DNA from: Calditrichota bacterium
GTDB lineage: Bacteria > CLD3
NCBI GenBank assembly: GCA_008501735.1
Contig: QQUF01000051.1
Span: 1-39,325 of the forward strand
Direction: 5' to 3'
Length of the DNA stretch: 39,325 nt
The notes under the pieces were generated by a model. The model worked only from the letters and a program-made list of their open reading frames with translations. It searched no databases and was not told where the DNA came from. Every line of letters begins with the position of its first letter. The stretch's first letter is position 1. This document shows, piece after piece, positions 3,001 through 39,325 of this stretch. The translations under genes were made by a program, and so were the position numbers.

Positions 3001-6000
3001 ATATCATAATTCGAAAAATCCAATCCTTTGTTCTGAACATTTCCCCTTAAAATCTTTTCTATCCAAAAAATCTCATCAGGTCTTAGGTCTTCAATTTCTA
3101 TAGCAAGAGATTGTTCACGAAGTTTGATGTCTGAAGTTTGGTCAGTTTCTTGTCCAACTCCAGGAGGTGGTTTGTAATTGAAATTTTCGTCTGTATTAAC
3201 AGTACTTATCTTTAGTTTTGTAATTGGAGGAGTTGCATTGTCAATCAAACTAATTTCTTCCCACTCAAACCCAACAAAATCAAAAAAAGCAACGTCCAAA
3301 ATCGAATAACTGATTTCCTCATCTTCAATTGTGGTTCGTAGAGGAATTTCGTTAAAACCTCCTTCTTCAACCCACATTCTAATGTAACCAATGTCTGATA
3401 ATATTAGTTCAGAAGTAGATTCTCCAACAATATCTTCAAATTCGCCTAAAGGTATTCTGTATAATTTCCAACCCCTTTCAGGTCTTGCTCCAAGACTGAC
3501 AAAATTCTTTAAAGAACCTAAATCAACAGAGTAGCTTAAGTAATCGTTTGCTGTATCTAAGTTGTCATCTCCGTCAAGGTCTTCTGTGTCAGGTCTATTA
3601 AATTCACCAATGTTTGACTTACTGTTGTCTTCGAGATTGTTCGATTTTCTAAATGAAAAAATATCACTTTCGTCTCTACCTTCAATATAATTATCTCCGT
3701 TTGGGTCGTCGCTTGAAATACCGTTTTGGTTTCTAAAAACTCTAGCTTGAGTACTATCAGAGAAACAACTTCCAAAACCATCTTCAAATGGGTCAGTACA
3801 ACCATCTAAACCTGTGTCTTCACCTGAATCCAATTCTCTGTTTCCAACGTTTCCTAAATCTGCGATTGGCTGGTCTTCAGTATCGAGAACTTTATCACCA
3901 TTTGAATCCTCGCTAATTTTCCCAATTTCAAGGTGAAGTTTTCCTGAGTTTACATTGTTCGGGTTTCTAACCCAAAGTTCAATGAAATTACTTTCTAATT
4001 GATTTCCAAAAACAGAAGCAGCTTGTGTAATTCCTGCCCATTTTTTTCGACTTGGAGCAGTTGTGTTGTCAGAGTAAACATAAACCATTCTAAAAATATC
4101 GTGTCTATCAGAACCAGATTGTACATCTTTGTCCAAAATGTCAGTCAAAGAAACTTCTGATTCCATCCAAAACATTTCTTCACGGTCTTTTGCTTCAAAG
4201 TTTTTAGGAGGTGCAGATTTTTTCCAAAAAGGAGTTTTTAGAGAAACAGAATTTGCTCTTTCAGCTCCTTCAAAATCGTCAATGTATGCGACACCGTTAT
4301 TGTCTCCTGTGCTAGCATTATTTTTTGTATTTGGATTAGGTAAAGATTGTGCAAACTCAGCCTGTAGGCTTAAAGTTGATTTCGTTTTTGTATCAATTAG
4401 TGGAATTGCGTCAACAATCTCTGTAAGCGGATTTATTTCATTTAAATTAAATCTTGAACTCATTCCCCAAAGAAAGTTTTTGACAGGCTCACGTCCAATT
4501 CTTGGTTTTTCTTCCGTTGAAGTTTGGCTAAGCCAAAGTGCTGTTCCTGCAAATTCTAATTTTGTTTCAGGTCTGTCAATCGGATTGTAAGCTGCTGTAA
4601 CTCCATAAAGTGCTTTTTTGTCAAAAGAGAAGAGGTCGGTACTTTCATACTCAATTTTTAATTCTCGACCTTCGGCAGCAAATTCTGAATTCTTTAATGT
4701 AATTTCGCCTAAAAAGTAGTCAATGTCATAATCAATTCCTTTAACTAATCTTTGTCCATTTGATGTTACAACTTCAGAATCTTCTAAAATGTTAATTGCA
4801 CCAATTGTGATTTTTTCATTTCCTTTTACAGAAGAACTCAAATTTGCACCTTTGATGACAATTGAATAAAGGCTTGCATTTTTAATGTTTGCATCTGTTT
4901 CAGCAACGTTGTAAATATCTCCAACAGATTGTAATTTTTCTAAATTTGTTGGTCCTAATGTCTCAAATTGTAATTTATACTCTTCATCTAAGACTTCGTA
5001 ATCAAATGGTTTTAAACGAGGAAAATAGAGGTATCCGTCATTAAACCTAAAAATATTTAAATTGTAATCGGGCTTGTTGTCTTTATTTTCATCTAAAAAG
5101 AAAACCTCAATAAGTGGAACTCCGGTCAAAGTTGGTGAAGGGACTGTATTTCCTTCTTCTGCAATTTCATTTTGATAAATTGTAACTTGGAAATTTTTAT
5201 TAAAGTCTTCTTCGGTCATTCCACGAGTTCCGATGTTATAAACATTTTTCATTTCGATTTCGTCATAAACTGAACCTTTAGTTGCACCATCTAAAGGTTT
5301 AAGAAGTTTTAATTCTAATTTTTCACCAGCATTTTCAAAAAATTCTCCAACCTGCAAACCAGCTTCAGTTTGATAACTAACTGCTAGAATTTCTTTTTTC
5401 TCTGACATCGAAGAATTCAATTTCAAAATTCCAAGATTAGCATCTAAAGTATATTCATTAGGTTCCAATCGATAAAACCATCTTGCATCTTCACTGGCTA
5501 ATGGCTCAGCATTTGGTTCATTTGGGTTTTCAAATAAATCTACTGCTGTACCAAATTTACCTGTTGTAGTCGGGTCAACAGTTCCTTTGCTTTTATAAAC
5601 TTCAATTCTCACAATTTCTTGTTCTTGTCTGTCAATTGGCAAAGAGTAAGAACCTGTAACTCCCTCGAATTGGATTTGCTCGAAAGTTTCGGCGTAACCA
5701 GTATCTAAAAAATAAAATTGTCTTTTCGCGTAATCGGTATCAGCTTTTAAAATTGAGTCAGCAGAAGCTCCACTCAAGATTTTGGTTTGTCTCTGACTTT
5801 TTTCCAAAGAAACTAAAGAGGTAAGTTCTACAGCACCAATTTTTGAGACGAGTTTGATTCCAAAAAGATTTGAAGATGCAGCACTTGTTCCAGTGATTAA
5901 AGAAGTTCCTGCTTGGAGGTTTAGAGAAGTATTTCCAGCTTCAATTTTTTGAATAATATCATCTTCATAACCTGTGTAAATCAATTTCACATTGTCTTCA

Positions 6001-26227: not shown

Positions 26228-27163
26228 ATGTCAAACTTTTCTTTAAAAAAGTCATCAGAACAAATCGAACTTGATTTAAAAGATGTAATCAACCTTCAAA
26301 GTGCAATTGAAATTTACCTTTCGACAACTCAAACGAAAGCTACAACTTACCACACTTACAGCCGTTCATTGGCAAGATTCAAACTTTGGGCAGATGAAAA
26401 AAGAATTGATTTTTTACAAATTGACACTGCAAAAATGCTTGAATACAAAAGCTACTTGGTTGACGTTTTGGAATTTAAAGAAGCGACAATTTCGACCTAC
26501 TTGACTTCTGTTCGTAGATTTTATGAATTTTTACTTGAGCACAACAAAGTCGATTCAAATCCTGTTAGAGCAGTCAAAGGCGGAAAAAGACCTCAAAAAC
26601 ATTCTACAAAATACTTAACGAAAACACAAATTGAACAACTCTTTAATTTCATTTTGAGTGAAGAAACTGAATTAGCAAAACGTGATGCAATGATTTTCAA
26701 ATTGATGTTGAATGCAGGTCTTGGAGAAATGGAAATTTCTGAATTAAAATTTGGCGATGTAAAAAAGGACAAAAACAATTTCTTACTTTACGTCAAGACT
26801 AAAGGTGAAACTAAAAAGGTTGGAATTCCAATCACACAAGAATTTTTTGATGAGCTTTTAGTATTTTTGGGAGAAACAGAAAACACAATTTCTTTAGCGG
26901 AAAAATCAGATTTTCCAGTAATCAAAAATCTCCATTTAATTTCTGACAAACCACTAACGGTTTCGATTCGTGCTTTGCGAAGAAGAGTTGATTTTTACTT
27001 GGAGCAAACAGGCTTGAAACAAAATGGGATTAAAGCCTTGAGCTTCAGACACACAGCAGCAATTCTTGCACTCGAAAGAGGAATGCCTGTCGAAGAAGTC
27101 AAAACTTTTATGCGGCACAAAATGCTCGACACAACAATGATTTACCAGAATAGTCAGCTTTGA
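26228..27163 (+). CDS. Tyrosine-recombinase-fold protein lacking two catalytic residues
   Basis: A 311-residue protein with the XerC/XerD architecture: an N-terminal SAM-like core-binding domain (about 18-105, YHTYSRSLARFKLWADEK to STYLTSVRRFYEFLLEHN) and a C-terminal catalytic-type domain. Of the catalytic set R-K-H-R-H-Y, I see the beta-hairpin lysine (VKTKGETKKVGIPI), the second arginine (SFRHT, Arg274), the histidine of FMRHKMLDTT and the nucleophile Tyr306 (TTMIYQNS). The first arginine is replaced by Gly166 (NAGLGEMEI where GLRxxE is expected) and the histidine of HxxR by Leu271. It is therefore probably unable to recombine DNA, or strongly divergent. The ATG follows the TPR gene's stop directly (TAAATG), so it is translated with housekeeping genes, and drmE begins 29 bases downstream. 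It may be a DNA-binding relic or accessory. Confidence 0.8.
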   Translation: MSNFSLKKSSEQIELDLKDVINLQSAIEIYLSTTQTKATTYHTYSRSLARFKLWADEKRIDFLQIDTAKMLEYKSYLVDVLEFKEATISTYLTSVRRFYEFLLEHNKVDSNPVRAVKGGKRPQKHSTKYLTKTQIEQLFNFILSEETELAKRDAMIFKLMLNAGLGEMEISELKFGDVKKDKNNFLLYVKTKGETKKVGIPITQEFFDELLVFLGETENTISLAEKSDFPVIKNLHLISDKPLTVSIRALRRRVDFYLEQTGLKQNGIKALSFRHTAAILALERGMPVEEVKTFMRHKMLDTTMIYQNSQL

Positions 27164-27192: not shown

Positions 27193-29586
27193 ATGTTTGA
27201 TGCAAATTATTTAAAAACAATTGTAAAAGAGATACTATTAAAAATTGAACAAGAAAATATTAATTTTCTTAAGTTTAAATTCGATGATTTCAGCCTAATA
27301 AATTTCTATTTGATAAATGAAGCTTTAAACCAAGAAAAATATAATCTCTTCATTCAGATTCCAGATAAGGAATTAAAAACAGATTTTTATTTGCCTCTTA
27401 TACTATCTGTTTCTTGCACATTATTTAAACAGAATTTTATTGACGATGTTACGGAGTTTAAAGTTGGAGATATTTTACAGCGAGATAATCAAAGATGGGA
27501 ATTAAAAGCGAAAAGAGGTAAAGATTATTTTTTAGAAAAGAGAGACAAAAACAAAACTAAAATGCGGGTTAATGAACTAAAGATAAACACTTTTACTATT
27601 ACAACTGCTCACTTAACTAACAGAAGAACTCGGACAAAATTTAATCACTACAAAAATTTATTTAAGGTCTTATTTAACATTAACGAATTTCCATCAAAAT
27701 TTTCTTATAAAACTGTAATTATTATTGAGAAGAAGGATTTTTATGAAACTATTAAGTCTGCAAAATTAAATGAAATTGAACTTCAAAAAGCCTTGCCGTT
27801 TCAATGGATTTCCAAAAATGGGATTGAAAAAGAGGAGTCTGAATTTATCCCAATTGAGCCAATGATTTATTTAGTACCAGACTATACAACTTTTCAAGAA
27901 CATCTTTCTAATAGGGTTAAACATCTAGAATCTGTAATTTTTGTCGGTAAGACGAAATACCAAAATGATTTATCTAAGATAAATTTAGATTTAAGAAATG
28001 AGACTATCCCAAAAGCAATTTTTATTGGAAGTGAAAATATTGAAAGTTTTGAAAATCAAAAGTCTTGGAAATGGACTATCCCTGAAATTAAATTTTTCCA
28101 AAAAGAGGAATCAAGCAAAGTTTCTTTTATTGAGACCTTAGAAACTGAATCTTTAAAAATATTTAAAGAACTTGAAATTTTCATAAAAAAAATAGATTAT
28201 GATTACAATTTTTCCTTGAAAAATTTACTTCGGTTGAAAAAATTATTATTCGCGTTAGTTATCTTTCCTAGTACTTCAAGACTTGATACACAAGTCCGAG
28301 AAATAAGATCATACTTTAAAACAAATTTTGAACAGGAAATAAAAACTTCTTTCTTTAATATTGGGAAAGACTTGAAGGAATTTAAGGATTTTATTGATAA
28401 AACTAACACACTGTTAGATTATATATTTGATAAGTTAAGAGATGAAAAATATCAAATATTTTTAAATGAAAAGAATGTAGATTGCCTAATTCTTCCTCCA
28501 AAACTAAAGGGAATTTATGAGGAAGAATTTCAAAAAGATGTACGATTTCAAAGAATTAAAATTTTCTCAATAAAGGAATTTATTCAGAATGAAAAGCAAT
28601 TTGATAAAATCAAAAATGTATATTTTCTTTCGGTTTTTGGTCATAATTTACTTCCAAATGAATTGATTAGTAAAATCAAACTAACTTCTCATAACTTTCA
28701 TTTTATTGTTTACGAAGAGGAAAAAGTTTTTTTTGAAAAAATCTTGAAATGTTTTCAGAATGAAATAATAAAAGAATTAAACTCTATTGACAGAGTAGAG
28801 TTAAGTGGAATTCAGTATCCCCAAAAATTACAAATTGAAGAATCAATTTCTGATATTCTAGACAAGTTTTATGAGAAGGAAGAACAGTGTAATCCAAAAT
28901 ATAATTACGAGCCTACAGAATCATTAAGCTATGAAATTGAATTTGAAGACGGAACAAATACAACTTTAGAAGCAAACAAAACCATTCTTTTTGAAAAGTC
29001 GGGTGTAAGTAGAAAAGAAATTGTTTCAAATTTACTCGAAAATGATAAAATTAGAATTTATGAAAATTCTTCTAAAGAAAAATTATTTGAGGTCGCAAGC
29101 AAAGAAGATGGAGATGGAAAATTAAAAGAAGTGCGAAAACATTCAGAACTTTGGAAAACAGCATTGAAAGAATTTTATTGCGACAACTTTATTTATCAAA
29201 GGGAAGATTTACTTAAAAAATTAAAAACTAACGGTGCAAATATTCAACTAACGACTTTAAATAATTGGCTTGAAGCCGATAATGAAACTTTGTTTCCGCG
29301 AACTGAAAGCCTTAATGCGATTCAAAGAACAATCCATAGTCAGGAGTTTAACGAAAAATTTGATAAAATTTTAGAGAGTAAAAACTTTTATAATGGAATA
29401 ATGATTTCTTTAGGAAGAGATTTGAGTGATGAAATAATGGACTACATTCTTTCTAAAGAAGATAAAATGAAAGGAAAAATTCTTAAAGATTTTTCCGATG
29501 AAGAAATAGTTGCATTTATTGATGAGAATTCTAGAGTTAGAACAATAAAGTCAATCAAAATATTGGAGAATGGAAATGTTGAATGA
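27193..29586 (+). CDS. drmE: DrmE-like protein, DISARM class 2 component (putative)
   Basis: A 797-residue cytoplasmic protein with no signal or membrane segment, first of a three-gene unit with drmA and drmB. The call rests mainly on context: class 2 DISARM loci are ordered drmE-drmA-drmB, and drmE products are of about this size. The N-terminal part has LILSVSCTLFKQNFIDD and FKVGDILQRDNQRWELKAKR (about 70-110), which fits my recollection of DrmE, and TFTITTAHLTNRRTRTKFNH. The middle (330-420) is helical and Lys/Phe-rich; the C-terminal 110 residues are helical with LTTLNNWLEADNETLFPRTE. No Walker motif, nuclease motif or Cys cluster is apparent. DrmE has no established biochemical function. 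A Shine-Dalgarno-like AAAGG lies just before the ATG. The 3' end overlaps drmA by 11 bases. The alternative is an unrelated third component of a DrmAB system. Confidence 0.6.
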   Translation: MFDANYLKTIVKEILLKIEQENINFLKFKFDDFSLINFYLINEALNQEKYNLFIQIPDKELKTDFYLPLILSVSCTLFKQNFIDDVTEFKVGDILQRDNQRWELKAKRGKDYFLEKRDKNKTKMRVNELKINTFTITTAHLTNRRTRTKFNHYKNLFKVLFNINEFPSKFSYKTVIIIEKKDFYETIKSAKLNEIELQKALPFQWISKNGIEKEESEFIPIEPMIYLVPDYTTFQEHLSNRVKHLESVIFVGKTKYQNDLSKINLDLRNETIPKAIFIGSENIESFENQKSWKWTIPEIKFFQKEESSKVSFIETLETESLKIFKELEIFIKKIDYDYNFSLKNLLRLKKLLFALVIFPSTSRLDTQVREIRSYFKTNFEQEIKTSFFNIGKDLKEFKDFIDKTNTLLDYIFDKLRDEKYQIFLNEKNVDCLILPPKLKGIYEEEFQKDVRFQRIKIFSIKEFIQNEKQFDKIKNVYFLSVFGHNLLPNELISKIKLTSHNFHFIVYEEEKVFFEKILKCFQNEIIKELNSIDRVELSGIQYPQKLQIEESISDILDKFYEKEEQCNPKYNYEPTESLSYEIEFEDGTNTTLEANKTILFEKSGVSRKEIVSNLLENDKIRIYENSSKEKLFEVASKEDGDGKLKEVRKHSELWKTALKEFYCDNFIYQREDLLKKLKTNGANIQLTTLNNWLEADNETLFPRTESLNAIQRTIHSQEFNEKFDKILESKNFYNGIMISLGRDLSDEIMDYILSKEDKMKGKILKDFSDEEIVAFIDENSRVRTIKSIKILENGNVE
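29565..29569 (+). promoter_or_regulatory. Shine-Dalgarno that decides the drmA start
   Basis: GGAGA inside the end of drmE is 6 bases before the ATG at 29576. The in-frame ATG at 29570 touches this motif with no spacing, so 29576 is the better start. Confidence 0.6.
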
Positions 29587-32500
29587 AAATGACTTAAGAG
29601 CAAGGCAGAAATTTCAAAATAGGATTACTAAAGGAATGCTTGGTCCTGGTTCTGATACTTGGGGACTTGAAGAAAAAGAGGAAATTATTTCTGACTATCC
29701 TTTGCAAAGGTATTTTACAGGTATCTTATTTCCGAAAAGTGAGAAGATTTATTCAGACACGGAAGCTGACGATAAAGAAGTTGAAGCAGAAACACTAGGT
29801 GAACAAGGTGAAGATGAATATATTCAAGAAAATATTGATGATGTAACTGAGAAGGATGAACCTAACGAAAATAAGAAAGAAAAAAATGAAGATTACGAAA
29901 AAATAAGCCAAAACAATTTTTTCCCAAACAACATAGGCTTAACAGTTTGTGTTGCAAATAGCACGAAAGAAATTGATGTTACATTTTCATTTGGAGTTTA
30001 CTTCCAACCCAAACTTTCTGAAACAAAAATAAAAATTTCTGAAAAAGGTTTTAAATCTTTTTCTGATTCTCAAATCCCTATTCAACTTTCATTTAAAGAT
30101 AAGTTAAAATTTGATGGAAAGTTTATGTGCTTAAAAAGAGAATTAGAAGGAAAAGCTTCAAAAGGAAGAAGTGAAGATTATAAAAGTTTTGATGAATTTA
30201 AAAAACAGAAGGAATTTTCAAAATTTGATGCTTCTAATTTTGTTTGGAAGTTAGAAAAATTATTGGGTAGAAAATGGAAAAGGAGAGAAATTGAAATTCG
30301 TAAGAAAATCAAAATTGAAGACCAGCTTTCTAGCCCTCTTGAATTGTCTTTTCTTTCTCATAAAAGTTTAAAAGTTTCCTTTTCAGTTAAGACATACACT
30401 TTTAAAGGGTTGCAATTTGTGAAAATTCAACTTGTAAATAATTCCGATAATCATCCGAGAAATAAATTTTCTAACTTAAACGAAATACTAAATTCTAAAT
30501 GTTTTTTCCAATCAAAAATAAAAATTGAATCCTCAAATATTGTTCCTTACAAAAACTATCGTGAAGAATTTCCTTTTGATGAAGAAGCGGAAAAATTGAA
30601 TTTTATTTATAGAGAAATTAAAAATTACGGCGTTGGACACAATTGTTCGATAACTTGGAATGGAGATAATCCCAAAGAAATTGAATCCACTTTTCTTCCA
30701 ACAATTGACATTCCTGATACAAAAAATGACTTAGAGCATTTGAAAGATTCAAGATTAGATAAAATATTAATGATTAAAAATCTTTCAATTTTTGGATTTG
30801 ACAAAAATGAAACTATTCAAGAATTACGATATTTTGTTAGTAAATACGAAGATTGGATTAATGAACAATCAATCCAAAAAGAAAAATTAGAAAGTTCTGA
30901 TAAAGAAACTGCTTCAGTGATAATTGGAAAACAAAAAGAAAACTTACATCGGTTAGAAAGTAACATTGAACTTTTAGAAAAAAATGAAGAAGCATTTCAA
31001 ACATTTCAACTATCAAATTTAGCAATGTTTATTCAGTTATTTATTTCAAACGACAAGGATTTTGCAAAAGAAGAAAAAGACTTAATAGATTTGAAAGAAG
31101 AAGTTGAATATGATGATTTAAACTATTTCTTAAATTTTAATTTTGAGGCAAAGTCTGAATCAAAAGAACCAAAATACAGACCTTTCCAATTGGCTTTTTT
31201 ACTTCTGAATATTGATGGAATTGTAAACAAAGAAAGTAAATCTCGAAAAGAAATAGTTGATTTAATTTGGTTCCCGACTGGTGGAGGAAAAACAGAAGCC
31301 TATTTCGCAGTTACTGCTTTTACAATAATTTGGAGACGTTTAACTAACGAAACCAAATTCGATGGAATTTCGGTAATTATGCGTTACACTCTTCGCCTTT
31401 TGACAGCTCAACAATTCGAAAGAGCTTCTCGATTAATCGCAGTTTTAGATTTTCTTCGTCAACAAGAAGAATTCAAAAAAATCTTGAAAGACAAACAAAT
31501 TTCAATTGGACTTTGGATAGGGCAGAGTTCAACACCTAATACTTTAAAAGTGGCTTTTAAATCAATTGATGAAATTGATAAAGAATGCAAGCCTACAGGT
31601 AACCCTCGAAGTAAAAATAAATTTCAAATTAGTTCTTGTCCTTGGTGCGGTACAAAAATCATTTCTAAAATAAGTAATGGAAATTGGGATTCTGGTTTTA
31701 GAAAGAGAAGAAAAACTCTAAAAATTTGTTGTCTAAATGGAAAGTGTCCTTTTAAAAATGAAATTCCAGTAAATGTTGTTGATGAGCTTCTTTACGAAAC
31801 TCCTCCGACTTTACTGTTCGGAACAGTTGACAAATTTGCCCAACTTGCTTGGCAAGAAGGACCATTGTCTTTTTTTGGTAAATTGCCTCCCGATTTAATA
31901 ATTCAAGATGAATTACATCTTTTAAGCGGTCCATTAGGTTCGATTACTGGAATTTTTGAAAGTGTAATTGAAATACTTTGTATGAAAAATGGTATTGCAC
32001 CTAAAGTGATTGCTTCAACTGCTACAACTCGAAACACTAACGAACAAGTAGGCAAACTCTATGGAAACAGAACAGTCAATATTTTTCCACCAACAGGAAT
32101 AAATTACAATGACAGTTTTTTTGCGAAGGAAAGTCAAGAGCAGGGCAAAAGACGTTATTTTGGTTTTTTGCCAACAGGGAAAACTGCATTGATTACTCAA
32201 TTACAAATTTTATCTCATTTGTTGGTTGCAAGGTTAGAGAATTATTCAGAAAATGTTTCTGATATGGAAAATGTAAATAATTATTGGACAATTGTTTCAT
32301 ACTACAACAGCTTAAAAGATGTCGGAAAAACTTACAACAAAGTAGGTGATGAAATTAAAACAGGAACTTCACAACTACAAATTCGCCTTAAATCTATTCT
32401 AAAAGAAAATTTTTATTTTAATTACTCAGGACTTATAAATCGAACAAAGGAACTCACAAGCAGAATTGAAAGTGAAAAAATAAAATCCACATTGAAGGAG

Positions 32501-33190
32501 CTTGAAGAAAATTTTACACAAGAAAAATTTTCAACTGACAAAGTTTACCTCAATAACGTAATTGACTTAGTCCTAGCAACAAATATGATTTCTGTGGGAA
32601 TTGACATTAATCGCTTAAACATTATGCTAATGAATGGAATGCCTAAAAATGTTGCTGAATACATACAGGCTTCAAGTCGTGTCGGAAGAAAGACATTTGG
32701 TTTAGTCGTTACTCTTTTAGATGCAAACCGACCAAGAGAAAAATCTTATTTTGAACATTTTCAGCCATTCCATAGAGCATTTTACAAGAGTGTTGAACCT
32801 TTGAGTGTTACGCCATTTACTGAAAATACGATTAGCAAAATGCTTTCAAGTTTACTTGTTTCGTTTGTTAGGCAATACTATCCTGAGTTAAATGGTGAAG
32901 ATCAGGCAAAAGATTTCACAAAGGAAAAAATAATTCCTTTGGTTGATTTCCTGAAAATAAGATTTGCTTCCGATGAAGAAGAATTGAAATTTTTTATTAA
33001 CGAAATTAATAGAGTTGCTGATGATTGGATTTCTAAAACTAAAACTGAAATTGCTGACCTTAAAAAATATAAAGAATTGTTAAAAGAGCCAGATTCAAAA
33101 ACAAAAGAAAACAAAAACAATGATTGGGTAACAATGAACTCAATGAGAGAAATTGACACAAATACATTTATTCGTATTAAGGAACGTTAA
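29576..33190 (+). CDS. drmA: DrmA, DISARM helicase
   Basis: A 1204-residue superfamily 2 helicase. In DISARM, DrmA pairs with DrmB and acts on invading DNA. Motifs seen: Walker A PTGGGKT (567-573, Lys572), MRYTLRLLTAQQFERASRL (motif Ia region), the DELH box in IIQDELHLLSGP (Asp778), STATTRN (motif III, about 812-818), and VAEYIQASSRVGRKTFG (motif VI, about 1026-1042) preceded by ATNMISVGIDI. The box context DELHLLSGPLGS is typical of DrmA. A likely zinc-binding insert lies between motifs I and II (CPWCG near 688, then CCLNGKCPF near 718). Residues about 58-112 are strongly acidic and probably disordered. The start overlaps drmE by 11 bases, and drmB starts one base after the stop, so the three are co-translated. 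Length is normal for DrmA. Confidence 0.88.
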   Translation: MLNENDLRARQKFQNRITKGMLGPGSDTWGLEEKEEIISDYPLQRYFTGILFPKSEKIYSDTEADDKEVEAETLGEQGEDEYIQENIDDVTEKDEPNENKKEKNEDYEKISQNNFFPNNIGLTVCVANSTKEIDVTFSFGVYFQPKLSETKIKISEKGFKSFSDSQIPIQLSFKDKLKFDGKFMCLKRELEGKASKGRSEDYKSFDEFKKQKEFSKFDASNFVWKLEKLLGRKWKRREIEIRKKIKIEDQLSSPLELSFLSHKSLKVSFSVKTYTFKGLQFVKIQLVNNSDNHPRNKFSNLNEILNSKCFFQSKIKIESSNIVPYKNYREEFPFDEEAEKLNFIYREIKNYGVGHNCSITWNGDNPKEIESTFLPTIDIPDTKNDLEHLKDSRLDKILMIKNLSIFGFDKNETIQELRYFVSKYEDWINEQSIQKEKLESSDKETASVIIGKQKENLHRLESNIELLEKNEEAFQTFQLSNLAMFIQLFISNDKDFAKEEKDLIDLKEEVEYDDLNYFLNFNFEAKSESKEPKYRPFQLAFLLLNIDGIVNKESKSRKEIVDLIWFPTGGGKTEAYFAVTAFTIIWRRLTNETKFDGISVIMRYTLRLLTAQQFERASRLIAVLDFLRQQEEFKKILKDKQISIGLWIGQSSTPNTLKVAFKSIDEIDKECKPTGNPRSKNKFQISSCPWCGTKIISKISNGNWDSGFRKRRKTLKICCLNGKCPFKNEIPVNVVDELLYETPPTLLFGTVDKFAQLAWQEGPLSFFGKLPPDLIIQDELHLLSGPLGSITGIFESVIEILCMKNGIAPKVIASTATTRNTNEQVGKLYGNRTVNIFPPTGINYNDSFFAKESQEQGKRRYFGFLPTGKTALITQLQILSHLLVARLENYSENVSDMENVNNYWTIVSYYNSLKDVGKTYNKVGDEIKTGTSQLQIRLKSILKENFYFNYSGLINRTKELTSRIESEKIKSTLKELEENFTQEKFSTDKVYLNNVIDLVLATNMISVGIDINRLNIMLMNGMPKNVAEYIQASSRVGRKTFGLVVTLLDANRPREKSYFEHFQPFHRAFYKSVEPLSVTPFTENTISKMLSSLLVSFVRQYYPELNGEDQAKDFTKEKIIPLVDFLKIRFASDEEELKFFINEINRVADDWISKTKTEIADLKKYKELLKEPDSKTKENKNNDWVTMNSMREIDTNTFIRIKER

Positions 33191-33191
33191 A

Positions 33192-35162
33192 ATGCCCGAA
33201 TACCAAGAAATTCAAACACGAAAAGTAATTAGTTCTTATGGTGGAGTTGGTTCAATTATTGAAACACCTCAAGGAGCAATCAAGATTCTTGATTTTGACA
33301 AATGGCCATTTTTTGAAAATGATTTACACAAGTTGGAAGATGCTCATATTAAAGACAATCGGCTTTTGGCTCGTTTACAGCAAAAAAATGGTTTCCCAAA
33401 TTTAGAAGCATTCATACAAGTTCCTTCCTGTACTGCAAACTACAATTATAAAACCAAGCCCAAAGAAGAAAAGAAAACAATCAGGGCAGAGTATTTTCCC
33501 AAATGGTTTTACTGTAACAAATGTGAAAGATTTTCAAATATTGAAAATTGGTGGAAAAATTGGATACACGTTTTAGAAAAATTCGGAGAACCTATCGAAA
33601 AAATTAGAAGAAGTTTCTTTTCTTCTCCAAAATGTTTTTACTGCTACAACGAAGCACGAAGTAAAAATAAGAATGACAAAAAAAGACGAAAATTTCTTTT
33701 TGAATTAGAACAAGTAAGATTTATTCTTACTTCTCCTCGTGGTGGAATGAAAGACATTCCTTGGGAAAAGTGGCCTTTGGCGAAAAAAAATGAAAGTGAA
33801 GAAAAAACTCAAACTGGAAAGATTAAATTAGATTTCAAAAACCTTTGTTGTGAATCCCAAGATTTGATTTACAAAAAATCTAACAAACTTTCCGATATGG
33901 CGGGAGTTACGATAGAATGTGTAAAGTGTAAAAATAAAAATACACTTACGGGGCTTTGGGGATTAAAATTACCTGTTTTTCAAAAAGAAAAAAATGAGGA
34001 AGAGAATAAAAAAGCATTTTGGAAACCAGTTATCAGAACAAGTAACAGTGTTTATTATCCAATTTTAATTCAAAGTATTTTTTTACCAACAGAACGAGAA
34101 ATTGATGTCTCAGATGTAAATAGAATTCTTAAATGGTTAGAAAAAGGAAAAGATTTAGAATTTATTTACGAGGCTTTGACAGATGATGAAGGAAATTCTA
34201 AATATAAAATTGAAAAAATTGAAAAAATTATCAAAGAGGAGCAAGGAGATGAATTTGAAGAAGAAGTTTTTTATCGGCAAAAGGAATTTAATTTTATTAC
34301 AAATCCAGAAAGAGAGTTTTTTCCTGATGAAAAAAAGAAGACTAAAGATTTAGTTTTTAAAAGAGAAAGATTGGAAATATTAGGAAGTTTTGGTTTTTCT
34401 AACTTAACTATATTGAAAAGACTTAAAGTTACTACCGTACAAACCGCTTACACAAGACAAGAACCTTTAGACAAAGACTTATTTTTGAGTGGCGAATTTG
34501 AGGACGAAGTCCAAATTAGACCAAAATATACCTCTAACTTTGGAAGACAGACACACTATCTTCCAGCAGTAGAAAGTTTTGGAGAAGGTATTTTTCTTAG
34601 TTTGGATAATGAAAAAGTTTCAAATTGGCTGAAAAAAGGTTTCGCCGAAGAGAAATTTTGTTCAAGAATTGACACGGTTTTTCAAAATATGAGAGAAAAT
34701 AATTTTATTAGAAATGAACGATTTCAAGAAGATAAAAATTTTTTAGCAAAATTTATTTTAGTTCATACTTTGTCTCACATTTTGATAAAAGAGTTAGAAT
34801 TTATTGTTGGTTATCCAGCGACATCGTTAAGCGAAAGACTTTACGTTAATTCTGAGGAAATGCAAGGTTTACTAATTTATACAGTAGCTGGTTCTGAAGG
34901 TAGTTTTGGAGGACTAATTACTCAAGGTAAAGAAAGTAGATTTAAAAAGATTCTTGAATCTGCACTACACCGTGCAAGAGATTGTGCATCGGACCCAATT
35001 TGTTACAATTCGATTGACGGACAAGGAGCAGGTTTAAATATTGCCGCTTGTTATTCCTGTGCTTTATTACCTGAAACCTCTTGTGAAGAATTTAATGGTT
35101 TCTTGGATAGAGCACTTTTAATTGACGAAGTATTTGGTTTTTTCAAAGAGGTCTTGTATTAA
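33192..35162 (+). CDS. drmB: DrmB, DUF1998-domain DISARM protein
   Basis: A 656-residue partner of DrmA. It starts MPEYQEIQTRKVISSYGGVG and has RVSG-free zinc-type Cys pairs: CNKC (108/111) with CFYC (148/151), and CC (219/220) with CVKC (243/246). The C-terminal third carries the DUF1998 signature: VHTLSHILIKELEFIVGYPA, SLSERLYV, LIYTVAGSEGSFGGLI and the closing cysteines in CASDPIC and AACYSCALLPETSCEEF. In DISARM, DrmB forms a complex with DrmA on DNA. I chose the ATG at 33192, right after the drmA stop, rather than an in-frame upstream start at 33153 inside drmA, because the family N-terminus begins at MPEY. Its stop overlaps by 4 bases the stop of the convergent CYTH gene, leaving no space for drmC next to it. 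Confidence 0.88.
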   Translation: MPEYQEIQTRKVISSYGGVGSIIETPQGAIKILDFDKWPFFENDLHKLEDAHIKDNRLLARLQQKNGFPNLEAFIQVPSCTANYNYKTKPKEEKKTIRAEYFPKWFYCNKCERFSNIENWWKNWIHVLEKFGEPIEKIRRSFFSSPKCFYCYNEARSKNKNDKKRRKFLFELEQVRFILTSPRGGMKDIPWEKWPLAKKNESEEKTQTGKIKLDFKNLCCESQDLIYKKSNKLSDMAGVTIECVKCKNKNTLTGLWGLKLPVFQKEKNEEENKKAFWKPVIRTSNSVYYPILIQSIFLPTEREIDVSDVNRILKWLEKGKDLEFIYEALTDDEGNSKYKIEKIEKIIKEEQGDEFEEEVFYRQKEFNFITNPEREFFPDEKKKTKDLVFKRERLEILGSFGFSNLTILKRLKVTTVQTAYTRQEPLDKDLFLSGEFEDEVQIRPKYTSNFGRQTHYLPAVESFGEGIFLSLDNEKVSNWLKKGFAEEKFCSRIDTVFQNMRENNFIRNERFQEDKNFLAKFILVHTLSHILIKELEFIVGYPATSLSERLYVNSEEMQGLLIYTVAGSEGSFGGLITQGKESRFKKILESALHRARDCASDPICYNSIDGQGAGLNIAACYSCALLPETSCEEFNGFLDRALLIDEVFGFFKEVLY

Positions 35163-35599
35163 CTCGTCAAATTAATATTTTGGTAAGTTGCTGAGTAAGA
35201 AACTTCTTCACCGAGCCAATCTGTTTTCTCAAATTCACAATCTTCACTTGGTAATTCAATTTCTGCCAAGAGCAATCCTTTGTTCTTACCTTCAAAGACA
35301 TCAATTTCCCAAATCAAATTATTTCCAGCGGGTAGAGTGTACCTAACTTTTTCTAATCTCGAGCCTTCGGTAGTTGCCCAAAGTTTGTCGAAAGTTTCTT
35401 TGTCAATTTCTGTCTCAAACTCCATTCTATTAAAGACTTTCACTTCCTTAACAGTTAAGTAGAATTTCTCACCTTTTTGCCGAACTCGAATTGCTGGTGT
35501 TCTACTTATGTAACCTTGATAAATTTTTTGAGGATTCTCTAAATTATCTGGCAAATACTTTAGTAAGAATTTTCTTTCTATTTCCTGTGAAGTTTTCAT
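35159..35599 (-). CDS. CYTH-domain protein (triphosphate tunnel enzyme family)
   Basis: A 146-residue single-domain protein of the CYTH family, whose members hydrolyse inorganic triphosphate or related triphosphates inside a beta-barrel tunnel. The ExExK signature is at residues 6-10 (EIERKFLL), followed by basic strand motifs IRVRQKGEKFYLTVK and the acidic strand pair EFETEIDKETF and LLLAEIELPSED, as in bacterial class IV adenylate-cyclase-like/TTM proteins. Length about 150 is normal for the short bacterial type. It converges on drmB with a 4-base overlap at the stops and has a plausible own promoter upstream (35637-35665). Its substrate is unknown; members of this family are widespread housekeeping enzymes, so its position next to DISARM may be coincidental. 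Confidence 0.9.
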   Translation of the reverse strand: MKTSQEIERKFLLKYLPDNLENPQKIYQGYISRTPAIRVRQKGEKFYLTVKEVKVFNRMEFETEIDKETFDKLWATTEGSRLEKVRYTLPAGNNLIWEIDVFEGKNKGLLLAEIELPSEDCEFEKTDWLGEEVSYSATYQNINLTS

Positions 35600-35636
35600 T
35601 TTTGGAAATTCCCGTTTTTGATTCTAAAGGAAAAGT

Positions 35637-35665
35637 AATTTACAAGTAATTCCAACCAAATCCAA
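35637..35665 (-). promoter_or_regulatory. Putative sigma-70-type promoter of the CYTH gene
   Basis: On the minus strand TTGGAT (plus 35660-35665) is followed after 17 bases by TAAATT (35637-35642), with TTG just upstream of the -10, an extended -10 pattern. The transcript would start about 30 bases before the ATG. The -35 matches consensus weakly (3 of 6), the -10 4 of 6. Confidence 0.4.
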
Positions 35666-35729
35666 ACTTGCAAATGAATAGCTCTATTTCTCTTACACGA
35701 AAGTACAAAATAAGGTGTTGTAATTTTGT

Positions 35730-35758
35730 TTGACTATCTTGTACCGTTTTTGTAAATT
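35730..35758 (+). promoter_or_regulatory. Putative sigma-70-type promoter of the AlbA/ATPase gene
   Basis: TTGACT (35730-35735, 5 of 6 to TTGACA) and TAAATT (35753-35758, 4 of 6) are separated by exactly 17 bases, with a TTTTTG stretch before the -10. Transcription would start near 35765, giving a leader of about 25 bases with the AGAGG site at 35781-35785. It shares the TTGTAAATT -10 region with the divergent CYTH promoter. Confidence 0.6.
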
Positions 35759-35789
35759 GCAAGAAATCAATATTTTTTACAGAGGTTTT

Positions 35790-37169
35790 ATGTCGATTAC
35801 AAATTACAAACAAAGAAAAGATTCACAACAATTCCAAAAGGTTGTAATCTATGGAAAAAACTTTGATGAATTACAAGAAGAATTGAAAACACATTTTATT
35901 TCTTTTGCTAACTCCAAAGGCGGTGAAATTTATTTTTCTTTCGATAATTCAGGCTTTAGAACCAGTGTAAAATTAAAAGAATTGATTTATAGGATTTTAC
36001 AAGAGCTTTCTGCACGAATAAATCTTGTAATTGAGTTATTCGATGACGAGAATGATTTTGGTTTAATTGCAAAAGTTTGGGAGTCTCCTGTAAAACCAGT
36101 TTATGACAAGAAAGCAGGAATCCTTGCAAGTAGTTTTGTTAGAAGTGGTAAAGGTTACAGATTACTTACTTCTCTTGAACAAGAATATTTGGCTACAGAA
36201 TCTCAAGGTAAAAGTTTTGACAGTTGTATGCTTCCTTCTTCTACGATTGAAGACTTGGATATTGAGAGCTTACGAAAAGCAATTCCAGCTGAAATGAAAA
36301 ATGGCTTACTACTAACGGAAGAGCTTTTACTTGAACAATTAGGTTTGGTCTTGAAAACCAACTTTGGAATGATTGGAGGAATCCCAACAATCGCAGGAAT
36401 CCTTTTGCTTGGCAAAGATGTTATGAAATTCCCTGAGTTCGATGGAGCATTTGTTGAAATTGAGCAAAATGAAAGAATAACAAGCCTTTCGGGTAACTTG
36501 CTTCAACAAATCACAAAGCTGAATGAGAAAGCTCCTAAATTGATGAAAAGCCTAAGTTTGAGAACCGCACTTCTGATTTTTATTGAAAATGCAATTCTTC
36601 ATAAAGACTACACAAAACGCAAACCGATTAAAGTAACAATCGAAAATGATTCTTTTGAAGTCATAACTCCAGGTTTACCAACTTACGGAATGAACCTAAG
36701 TTCTTTGCGAACTCGAAAAGTCCCGAGAAACGAAAAAATATATTATTTCTTTAAATTGTTAGGTAAGAATCAAATTACCTCTTCATCAGAATTAGCCGAA
36801 AATATCGAAGTCGAAACAGAGTATTTTGGCGAATCCCTTAGATTAAAATGTTCTTTGAGAAAAGAGCAGCAAGTAGTTAAGGAAAAAATTGACATTGAAT
36901 CCAAGAATAATTCACTAAATTCCCGTCGCAAAAAAATAGAAAAACGCACCACTTTTGAAGAAACTGATTCTGAACTTTTACCAAGGCACGCAGAAGCTCT
37001 TAAATACTTCTCTAACAAAGAAGATGGAGTGATTACACGCAAGACTTACGAGAAAAAGTTCAATGTTTCTCAAAAAACTGCTAACCTTGATCTTGTGAAA
37101 CTTGAAAAATTACAAAAAATTACAAGATATGGTAAAGCAAGGAGTGTTTATTACAAGATAAACTCTTAA
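35790..37169 (+). CDS. AlbA_2 (Schlafen-like) / HATPase / winged-helix putative regulator
   Basis: A 459-residue protein resembling the COG2865 group of predicted regulators. The N-terminal region (about 20-130) is AlbA_2/Schlafen-like, with FISFANSKGGEIYFSFDNSG. The middle has a GHKL-type ATP-binding pattern: ENAILHKDY (266-274; Asn267, Asp273) and DSFEVITPGLP. The last 60 residues (from about 400) form a winged-helix-like domain (VITRKTYEKKFNVSQKTANL). A basic linker lies before it. Such proteins bind nucleic acid and are commonly annotated as ATP-binding transcriptional regulators; some relatives sit in defence islands. I prefer the ATG at 35790, with AGAGG upstream, over an in-frame TTG at 35730 that would overlap the promoter -35. 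It has its own promoter, is divergent from CYTH and 15 bases upstream of gcvP, so gcvP may be co-transcribed. Confidence 0.8.
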   Translation: MSITNYKQRKDSQQFQKVVIYGKNFDELQEELKTHFISFANSKGGEIYFSFDNSGFRTSVKLKELIYRILQELSARINLVIELFDDENDFGLIAKVWESPVKPVYDKKAGILASSFVRSGKGYRLLTSLEQEYLATESQGKSFDSCMLPSSTIEDLDIESLRKAIPAEMKNGLLLTEELLLEQLGLVLKTNFGMIGGIPTIAGILLLGKDVMKFPEFDGAFVEIEQNERITSLSGNLLQQITKLNEKAPKLMKSLSLRTALLIFIENAILHKDYTKRKPIKVTIENDSFEVITPGLPTYGMNLSSLRTRKVPRNEKIYYFFKLLGKNQITSSSELAENIEVETEYFGESLRLKCSLRKEQQVVKEKIDIESKNNSLNSRRKKIEKRTTFEETDSELLPRHAEALKYFSNKEDGVITRKTYEKKFNVSQKTANLDLVKLEKLQKITRYGKARSVYYKINS

Positions 37170-37184
37170 ATAAAAGTTGCGATA

Positions 37185-39325
37185 ATGGATTTAAACTCTA
37201 ATTCTTACAATAATTTCCAAAGAAGACACATTGGAATTAATCCAATAGAATTACAAGAAATGTTGCAAGTGATAAAAGCAGATTCACTTGATACTTTAAT
37301 TGATGAAACAATCCCTTCACAGATTAGAAAAAAAGATTCTCTCAGAATCAACGAAGCTCTAAGCGAACACGAATACCTAAAACACATTAAAGAAATCTCT
37401 AATAAGAATGAAGTATTTCGTTCTTATATCGGATTAGGCTATCACAATTCAATTATTCCTGGAGTAATCCTTAGGAATATTTTTGAAAATCCAGGTTGGT
37501 ACACTCAATACACTCCTTACCAAGCAGAAATCTCTCAAGGAAGATTAGAAGCTTTGTTGAACTTTCAAACAATGGTTTCTGACCTTACTGGAATGGAAAT
37601 TGCAAATGCTTCTCTTCTAGACGAAGGAACAGCTGCTGCAGAAGCAATGACAATGTTTGACAGACTCAGAAGCCGAAAAGCTAAAAATGCCAATAAATTT
37701 TATGTCTCTGAGAAATGTTTTCCGCAAACAATTGATATTTTACAAACGAGAGCAGAGCCAGTTGGAATCAAAATTATAGTTTGCGACCACAATGAATTTA
37801 TTTTTGACGACACAGTAATTGGAGCATTACTCCAATATCCTGCAGAAGATGGAAATATTATCGATTATTCAAAAGTGATTGAAAATGCTCACGAAAACGA
37901 AGCTTACATTGTTGTTGCAGCAGATATTTTGAGCTTAGCAATCCTTAAACCTCCAGGGGAATTTGGTGCTGACGTTGTTGTTGGAAACTCACAAAGGTTT
38001 GGTGTTCCTTTAGGTTTTGGCGGACCTCACGCAGCTTTCTTTGCAACAAAGTCAGAATTTATTCGCTCGATTCCAGGTAGGATTATTGGAGTTTCTAAAG
38101 ATGCAGAAGGTAACAACGCTTACAGAATGACTCTCCAAACTCGTGAACAACACATTCGCCGAGACAAAGCAACTTCAAACATCTGTACGGCACAAGCACT
38201 TTTGGCAATTATTGCAGGAATGTATGCAGTTTATCACGGTCCAAAAGGGTTAAAACTGATTTCTCAAGTGGTTCACAATTTAGCCACAATTTTGGAAAGT
38301 GAACTAAAAAAGTTAGGCTTTGAAGTAATTAATGAACATTATTTCGATACTTTGAGAATAAAAACAGATAATGCTCAAGAACTCGTTGAATTAGCTGTTG
38401 AGAAACAAATCAATTTTAGAAATGTCAATCACAATACCTTAGACATCTCAATAAATGAAGTAACAACACTAAAAGATATTTCAGAAATTGTTTCAATTTT
38501 TGCAAAATCAATCGGTAAAGTTCTTCTTAATCCTTTAAAGGCATCTGATTACGAAAATTTAACAACCTCACGATTGCCTGAAAATTTGAAAAGAACTTCT
38601 GAGTTTCTCACACACCCTGTTTTTAATTCTCACCATTCTGAAACTCAAATGCTTCGTTATATTAAATCTTTGGAAAACAAAGACCTTTCACTTACTTCTT
38701 CAATGATTTCGTTAGGTTCTTGTACAATGAAACTTAATGCAACCTCTGAAATGATTCCTTTAAGTTGGAGTGAGTTTTCGGCAATTCACCCTTTTGCACC
38801 TTTGAACCAAGCGAAAGGCTACTACGAAGTAATTAAAAATTTAGAAAATGATTTAGCAGAAATTACTGGTTTCGACGGTGTTTCTTTGCAACCAAATTCT
38901 GGAGCTCAAGGTGAATATGCAGGTTTAATGGTAATTCGAGCTCACCAAAAAGACATTGGGCAAAGTAGCAGAAATATCGTTTTAATTCCTTCTTCTGCAC
39001 ACGGAACAAATCCTGCAAGTGCTGTAATGGCAGGAATGAAAGTCGTAGTTGTAAAATGTGATGACAATGGAAACATTGATATCGAAGACTTAAGAGTAAA
39101 AGCAATCCAGTACAAAGATTCACTTTCAGCTTTAATGGTAACTTATCCTTCGACTCACGGAGTTTTTGAAGAAGGTATTAAGGAAATCTGCTCAATTGTT
39201 CACGAGAATGGTGGACAAGTTTATATGGATGGAGCGAATATGAACGCTCAAGTTGGTTTGACAAGTCCAGCAATTATTGGTGCTGATGTTTGTCATTTAA
39301 ATTTACATAAAACTTTTGCAATTCC
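37185..39325 (+). CDS. gcvP: Glycine dehydrogenase (P protein of the glycine cleavage system), 3' truncated by window
   Basis: The first 713 codons of the single-chain, PLP-dependent glycine decarboxylase, which releases CO2 from glycine and passes the aminomethyl group to the lipoyl H protein. Landmarks: [17 protein letters not shown] at the start, [45 protein letters not shown], the second-half [10 protein letters not shown] and [13 protein letters not shown], and the PLP-binding lysine in NLHKTF (Lys709) near the right edge. Full-length proteins are about 950 residues, so the C-terminal quarter lies beyond the window. The ATG at 37185 is 15 bases after the AlbA/ATPase gene. No gcvT or gcvH is visible here, nor a glycine-riboswitch-like leader, since the gene follows another directly. 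Confidence 0.96.

Follow-up and report, generated by a model that had tools for sequence, protein, structure and literature searches.

The window analysed here, which is an entire contig of 39,325 bp from a genome of 4.14 Mb with a completeness rating of 100%, carries on its forward strand three intact and tightly packed genes within positions 27193-35162. The first of this trio, drmE (27193..29586), encodes 797 residues and overlaps by 17 bases the second, drmA (29570..33190), whose product is a 1206-residue SF2 helicase of the YprA/DISARM type. The third, drmB (33192..35162), encodes a DUF1998/MZB protein of 656 residues counted from the ATG at 33192, and its 3' end overlaps a convergent CYTH gene (35159-35599) by 4 bases. 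This ATG, positioned 1 base past the drmA stop codon, is the likely start of drmB rather than the TTG at 33153 from which the open reading frame was listed, because all three aligned homologues start there with MP-. A scan for promoters and terminators returned signals no better than those of shuffled sequences. The arrangement of overlapping or abutting genes running into the CYTH gene, first described in a sequence-only reading of this DNA, is thus confirmed.

The gene names proposed in that reading also hold when the products are compared with profiles and structures. DrmE passes model NF038316 with 94.6 bits against a cut-off of 80, and PADLOC returned no DrmE match at the trio. DrmA contains the motifs PTGGGKT, DELH and SRVGR, matches the PADLOC DrmA profile at 1.2e-191 and aligns with the DrmA chain of PDB 7s9v (7s9v_A) at 1.2e-127 and 430 bits. 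Its score of 863.8 bits lies under the cut-off of 950 for the NCBIfam equivalog model NF038325, as is expected of a divergent branch. DrmB passes NF038324 (328.8 bits, cut-off 240), matches PF09369 (MZB) and aligns with the DrmB chain 7s9v_B at 9e-36 and 127 bits.

Class 2 DISARM is composed of drmE, drmA, drmB, drmC and drmMII (the Ofir 2018 definition as given in PMC9252829). How much of this system is present here? The sequence-only reading had noted the absence of drmC and of any methyltransferase from the window, and the searches agree: queries for DrmC, DrmMI/PglX, DrmD and C5 methylases gave zero matches among all window ORFs, and the same queries do detect these genes in control DISARM loci. 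Extension of the search to the whole genome likewise found neither a drmC nor a DISARM-type methylase. The sole match of a genome-wide PLD search lies within a 763-aa polyphosphate kinase-like gene and does not represent DrmC. The one C5 methylase gene of the genome overlaps a following R.HinP1I-type endonuclease gene (L004:9098-10730), and this pairing identifies it as part of an ordinary type II system and rules it out as DrmMII; that it also scores on the PADLOC DrmMII profile is what many C5 enzymes would do. Many matches to adenine/N4-methylase families are found elsewhere in the genome.

The trio shares with class 2 DISARM the drmE-drmA-drmB order, homologous DrmA, DrmB (as a separate gene) and DrmE proteins, and the position of the DrmA trigger loop. 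It differs in that drmC and drmMII are missing from the window and from the clade described below (one locus, L069, has a weak, non-adjacent DrmC match), and in that its DrmA belongs to a separate clade that often carries Ile at the position of Val1296. Since the core is DISARM-like and both DrmC and DrmMII are missing, we file the trio, on the basis of its gene content, as a methylase-free DISARM-like variant and not as class 2 DISARM proper. Class 1 DISARM (drmD, drmMI, drmA, drmB, drmC; Serratia, PDB 7s9v) shares the DrmAB core at the 430 and 127 bits given above, whereas the trio has DrmE in place of the SNF2-like DrmD, the PglX-like methylase and DrmC; control DrmD and PglX queries found zero matches to DrmD and DrmMI in the window. 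Relative to the class 1 protein (7s9v_A), the trio DrmA is also missing ~120 residues at the N terminus, the region for which an EVE-like modified-base reader domain has been predicted (PMC12458937). ARMADA, Druantia and Dpd have the YprA-family helicase core in common with the trio, which is set apart from all three by its separate drmB gene, a hallmark of DISARM (PMC12458937). ARMADA moreover needs a PglX-like methylase and BrxHII, Dpd needs deazapurine genes, and the DruE of Druantia is a single long protein (PMC12458937); the window lacks PglX, and the ARMADA combination of PglX-like methylase and BrxHII beside a YprA helicase is absent from it. Elsewhere in the same genome, a 1716-aa open frame on the minus strand (L008; G000:C18 ~4325-4714) has its best PADLOC matches among Druantia DruE helicases (1.6e-43) and possibly represents a Druantia-type system.

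Relatives of the locus were identified with an alignment of three DrmA homologues; a scan of genome contigs with a single DrmA sequence had returned zero. The survey of related genomes proposed with the sequence-only reading, which covered 84,980 species genomes and two plasmids, recovered drmE-drmA-drmB in this order at 56 loci. The hosts are mostly Bacteroidota and also include Ignavibacteriota, Chlorobiota, Nitrospirota, Omnitrophota, Pseudomonadota and others; the distribution is patchy and some copies are plasmid-borne. Hosts that can be cultured are among them, for example Flavobacterium lacus (L052) and Sinomicrobium (L028). In two trees the DrmA proteins of the trio loci group as a single clade, with an SH-aLRT support of 100. 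No C5 methylase was found at any of the 56 loci in the available flanks, which reach 3 kb or more to each side in 30 of 55, a count to be read with the knowledge that many of these loci lie on short contigs and are not phylogenetically independent. The same search found a C5 methylase at 20 of 24 comparable DrmA/B loci of neighbouring clades and thereby provides its own positive control. None of the trio loci has a DrmC adjoining drmB, and the DrmC profile run over 57 trio sources gave the single weak match at L069 (1.7e-5), away from drmB; among controls the profile detected DrmC at two of four plasmid loci and, in DISARM loci on viral contigs, at 5 of 17. There is no recurrent fourth gene either, the most frequent neighbour family occurring at no more than 5 of the 56 loci, and a few of the loci neighbour restriction genes, including type I.

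The sequence-only reading had also allowed for decay of drmAB in close relatives. The relatives are not decayed: across ten close pairs, dN/dS values for drmE, drmA and drmB are 0.03-0.20, and the three-gene class is therefore maintained. Broken genes are seen in few members, namely drmA in L037 and L079 and a drmE split over two frames in L051, L074, L076 and L077. A further set of drmE-drmA-drmB loci from Bacillota and others (L081-L099) has the same core order and likewise no DrmC, and differs from the trio in that it nearly always includes a C5 methyltransferase and that Val1296 is invariant in its DrmA. At nine methylase-bearing drmE-drmA-drmB loci without DrmC (L081, L085, L087, L088, L090, L095, L096, L101 and L105) a gene of 420-594 aa resembling a NERD nuclease-helicase fusion is present, and perhaps, judging from this resemblance, it supplies the nuclease of the methylase-bearing branch.

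In Serratia DrmAB, a trigger loop (DrmA residues 176-232) shuts the DNA channel and admits only DNA with a 5' overhang, and Val1296 of DrmA contacts a base and has been proposed as a methylation sensor; DrmC is dispensable for DISARM, which also acts against phages without methylation sites (PMC9142583). Alignment of the window DrmA to 7s9v_A places an acidic low-complexity loop (residues 56-118; 29735..29923, forward strand) against the Serratia trigger loop. It comprises 63 residues with a net charge of -15, and its length and charge are similar in the clade relatives wherever they can be measured. Val1296 is the Val of the C-terminal SMREV motif in 7s9v_A, and the corresponding motif in the window is SMREI (residues 1191-1195; 33140..33154, forward strand), with Ile1195 in its place. 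Among trio DrmA proteins this position is Ile in 42 of 54 and Val in 12 of 54, compared with Val in 26 of 26 others. It has changed at least 7 times on the tree, and the closest relative (L027) retains Val. Ile at this position would fit relaxed methyl sensing, a suggestive reading of the alignment in which the Val-to-Ile change is conservative and not fixed.

An AlphaFold2 model of DrmE built from 61 homologues has a pLDDT of 86.9, and every one of its best Foldseek matches is an SF2 helicase of the LGP2, Dicer, MDA5, RIG-I or XPB kind, with E-values down to 8e-7. The TM scores against these helicases are only 0.2-0.3, because the domains are differently arranged. A Walker A motif ([AG]xxxxGK[ST]) occurs in none of the 61 homologues. 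Helicase fold matches and the absence of Walker A together make a catalytically dead, degenerate SF2-helicase-like subunit that would bind DNA the best reading of the modelled protein. DrmE was also considered as a nuclease, a role against which both motif and fold speak: the 61 sequences contain no conserved acid, histidine or HKD catalytic set, K419, W654 and P702 being their only invariant residues, and the fold matches are helicases. The trio therefore contains one ATPase and no recognisable nuclease, which points to blocking of phage DNA or to recruitment of host nucleases.

The immediate neighbours of the trio in the window are a recombinase, the CYTH gene and an AlbA_2 gene. The upstream genes, including a XerC-like gene with 63% identity, occur without the trio in the sister genus (G001), as do the CYTH, AlbA_2 and glycine-dehydrogenase genes that form the downstream flank here. 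The XerC-like gene (26228-27163), which might have been taken for the integrase of a mobile element, is rejected as such since the sister genus has its counterpart in an identical gene order. The AlbA_2/Schlafen-like gene (35730-37169) is rejected as a fourth component on similar grounds; it is a resident of the lineage and adjoins only 4 other trio loci. The block of CYTH, AlbA_2/Schlafen-like and glycine-dehydrogenase genes (35159-39325) is inverted relative to the upstream block when compared with the sister genus (L144 8499-13921), and a rearrangement has therefore happened at the locus. The presence of both flanks without the trio in the sister genus nonetheless indicates a clean three-gene insertion. 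This empty site, the lower G+C content of the trio (27-32% vs 32-34% in its surroundings) and the lack of DrmE in all 8 remaining genomes of this small phylum indicate that the cassette, made up of these three genes only, was probably acquired horizontally. A DrmA search of the sister genome found no copy.

How might such a cassette spare the host chromosome? We hypothesize that the trio is a complete anti-phage module, sufficient by itself, and that it represents a variant of class 2 DISARM which works independently of methylation and chooses DNA by its structure; we regard this as the probable explanation. We infer that the three proteins form a complex acting in phage defence, in which DrmA and DrmB would form a helicase clamp and the acidic loop of DrmA would act as a gate, holding the DNA channel shut against intact host duplex. 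Only DNA with a single-stranded 5' end, such as entering or replicating phage DNA, would displace the loop; because the loop would exclude intact duplex, self would be spared by DNA structure, with no part played by a methyl mark. Once loaded, the ATPase would translocate and block circularisation, replication or transcription of the invader, and any cutting would be left to host nucleases. DrmE, with its helicase-like fold and no ATP site, would be the probable DNA-binding or substrate-selecting subunit. The broader proposal, that a widespread, mark-free clade of DISARM relatives tells phage from host by DNA end structure through a three-protein complex in which DrmE is a dead-helicase substrate reader and which has no nuclease of its own, is put forward more tentatively, as a reading with slightly less than even odds.

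The sequence-only reading had left a choice between a methylase encoded elsewhere and a methylation-independent DrmABE system. The evidence favors the second, and the first keeps some probability through adenine methylases because genes of the PF02384 type occur in all 22 trio genomes tested, a family that also picks up non-DNA methylases. In its explicit form the first option states that methyltransferases of resident restriction systems mark the chromosome and that DrmAB reads this borrowed mark. It draws on those PF02384 genes, on the many adenine/N4-methylase genes and the one C5 methylase of the present genome, and on the few trio loci that adjoin type I restriction genes. However, the trio genomes have no methylase family in common. 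PF00145 matches are absent genome-wide from 21 of 40, on which ground a common C5 mark is excluded, as judged by these profile searches, for half of the sampled trio genomes, an exclusion that does not extend to an adenine mark; PF01555 genes are present in 17 of 22 and absent from 5. The adenine-methylase-family genes that are present vary in size and kind, from type I-sized to type III- and IIG-sized frames, and a mobile cassette that needs an unlinked methylase would be a risky acquisition. A borrowed mark is for these reasons considered unlikely. Somewhat less likely again is a hidden nuclease, residing in DrmE or in a conserved partner encoded at another locus, with which the trio would degrade DNA rather than block it. 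No activity has been assigned to DrmE, whose rate of evolution exceeds that of DrmA and DrmB in several of the dN/dS pairs, and the NERD-nuclease/helicase-like gene lies beside several methylase-bearing relatives; the lack of a catalytic set in DrmE, its helicase fold and the lack of a recurrent neighbour gene at the trio loci argue against this explanation.

The two remaining alternatives bear on the origin and general function of the cassette. Repair proteins such as MrfA belong to the YprA family of helicases (PMC12458937), and the window DrmA weakly matches YprA/MrfA in the PDB, so that the trio could be a YprA/MrfA-like helicase module that serves mainly in DNA repair or against plasmids and not primarily against phages. 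Yet DrmA, DrmB and DrmE are far nearer to DISARM than to MrfA (430 vs 22 bits), and the cassette is patchy, plasmid-borne, sometimes located beside restriction genes and missing both from the phylum's 8 further genomes (DrmE search) and from the sister genome (DrmA search); we consider this improbable. The inversion beside the locus could further be taken to mean that the trio is what remains of a class 2 DISARM after decay or a recent break in which drmC and the methylase were lost. This is highly improbable and is largely refuted by the DrmA clade, the resident flanks and the purifying selection: an entire clade maintained under such selection descends from the three-gene form, both flanks are resident genes of the lineage, and the rest of the genome yielded neither DrmC nor a DISARM-type methylase.

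DISARM has been named and explained through restriction-modification, and there are already hints in published work that both methylation and DrmC may be dispensable. A natural clade without methylase or DrmC in which the putative structural gate is kept constitutes a minimal three-gene system, one that lets self/non-self discrimination by DNA structure be tested without knockouts and makes testable whether DISARM-type systems need DNA marking at all. DISARM detectors that demand drmC or drmM would miss this whole branch of putative Bacteroidota defence. In the literature searched, many uncharacterized DISARM-like classes are mentioned without detail (PMC12458937), and we found no account of a DrmEAB class that lacks a methylase; the original DISARM paper (Ofir 2018) might contain one.

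Two further arrangements were observed around the trio clade. On a plasmid of Priestia megaterium (L146, NZ_CP064272.1), which forms a long branch beside the clade, drmA-drmB follow three uncharacterised genes, and no methylase or DrmC is annotated within the 14 kb shown. Actinobacterial drmA-drmB loci (L100, L102-L104 and L106) have an upstream gene of ~1570-1945 aa in the position of drmE, and the one inspected, at L100, starts like a GHKL-type ATPase.
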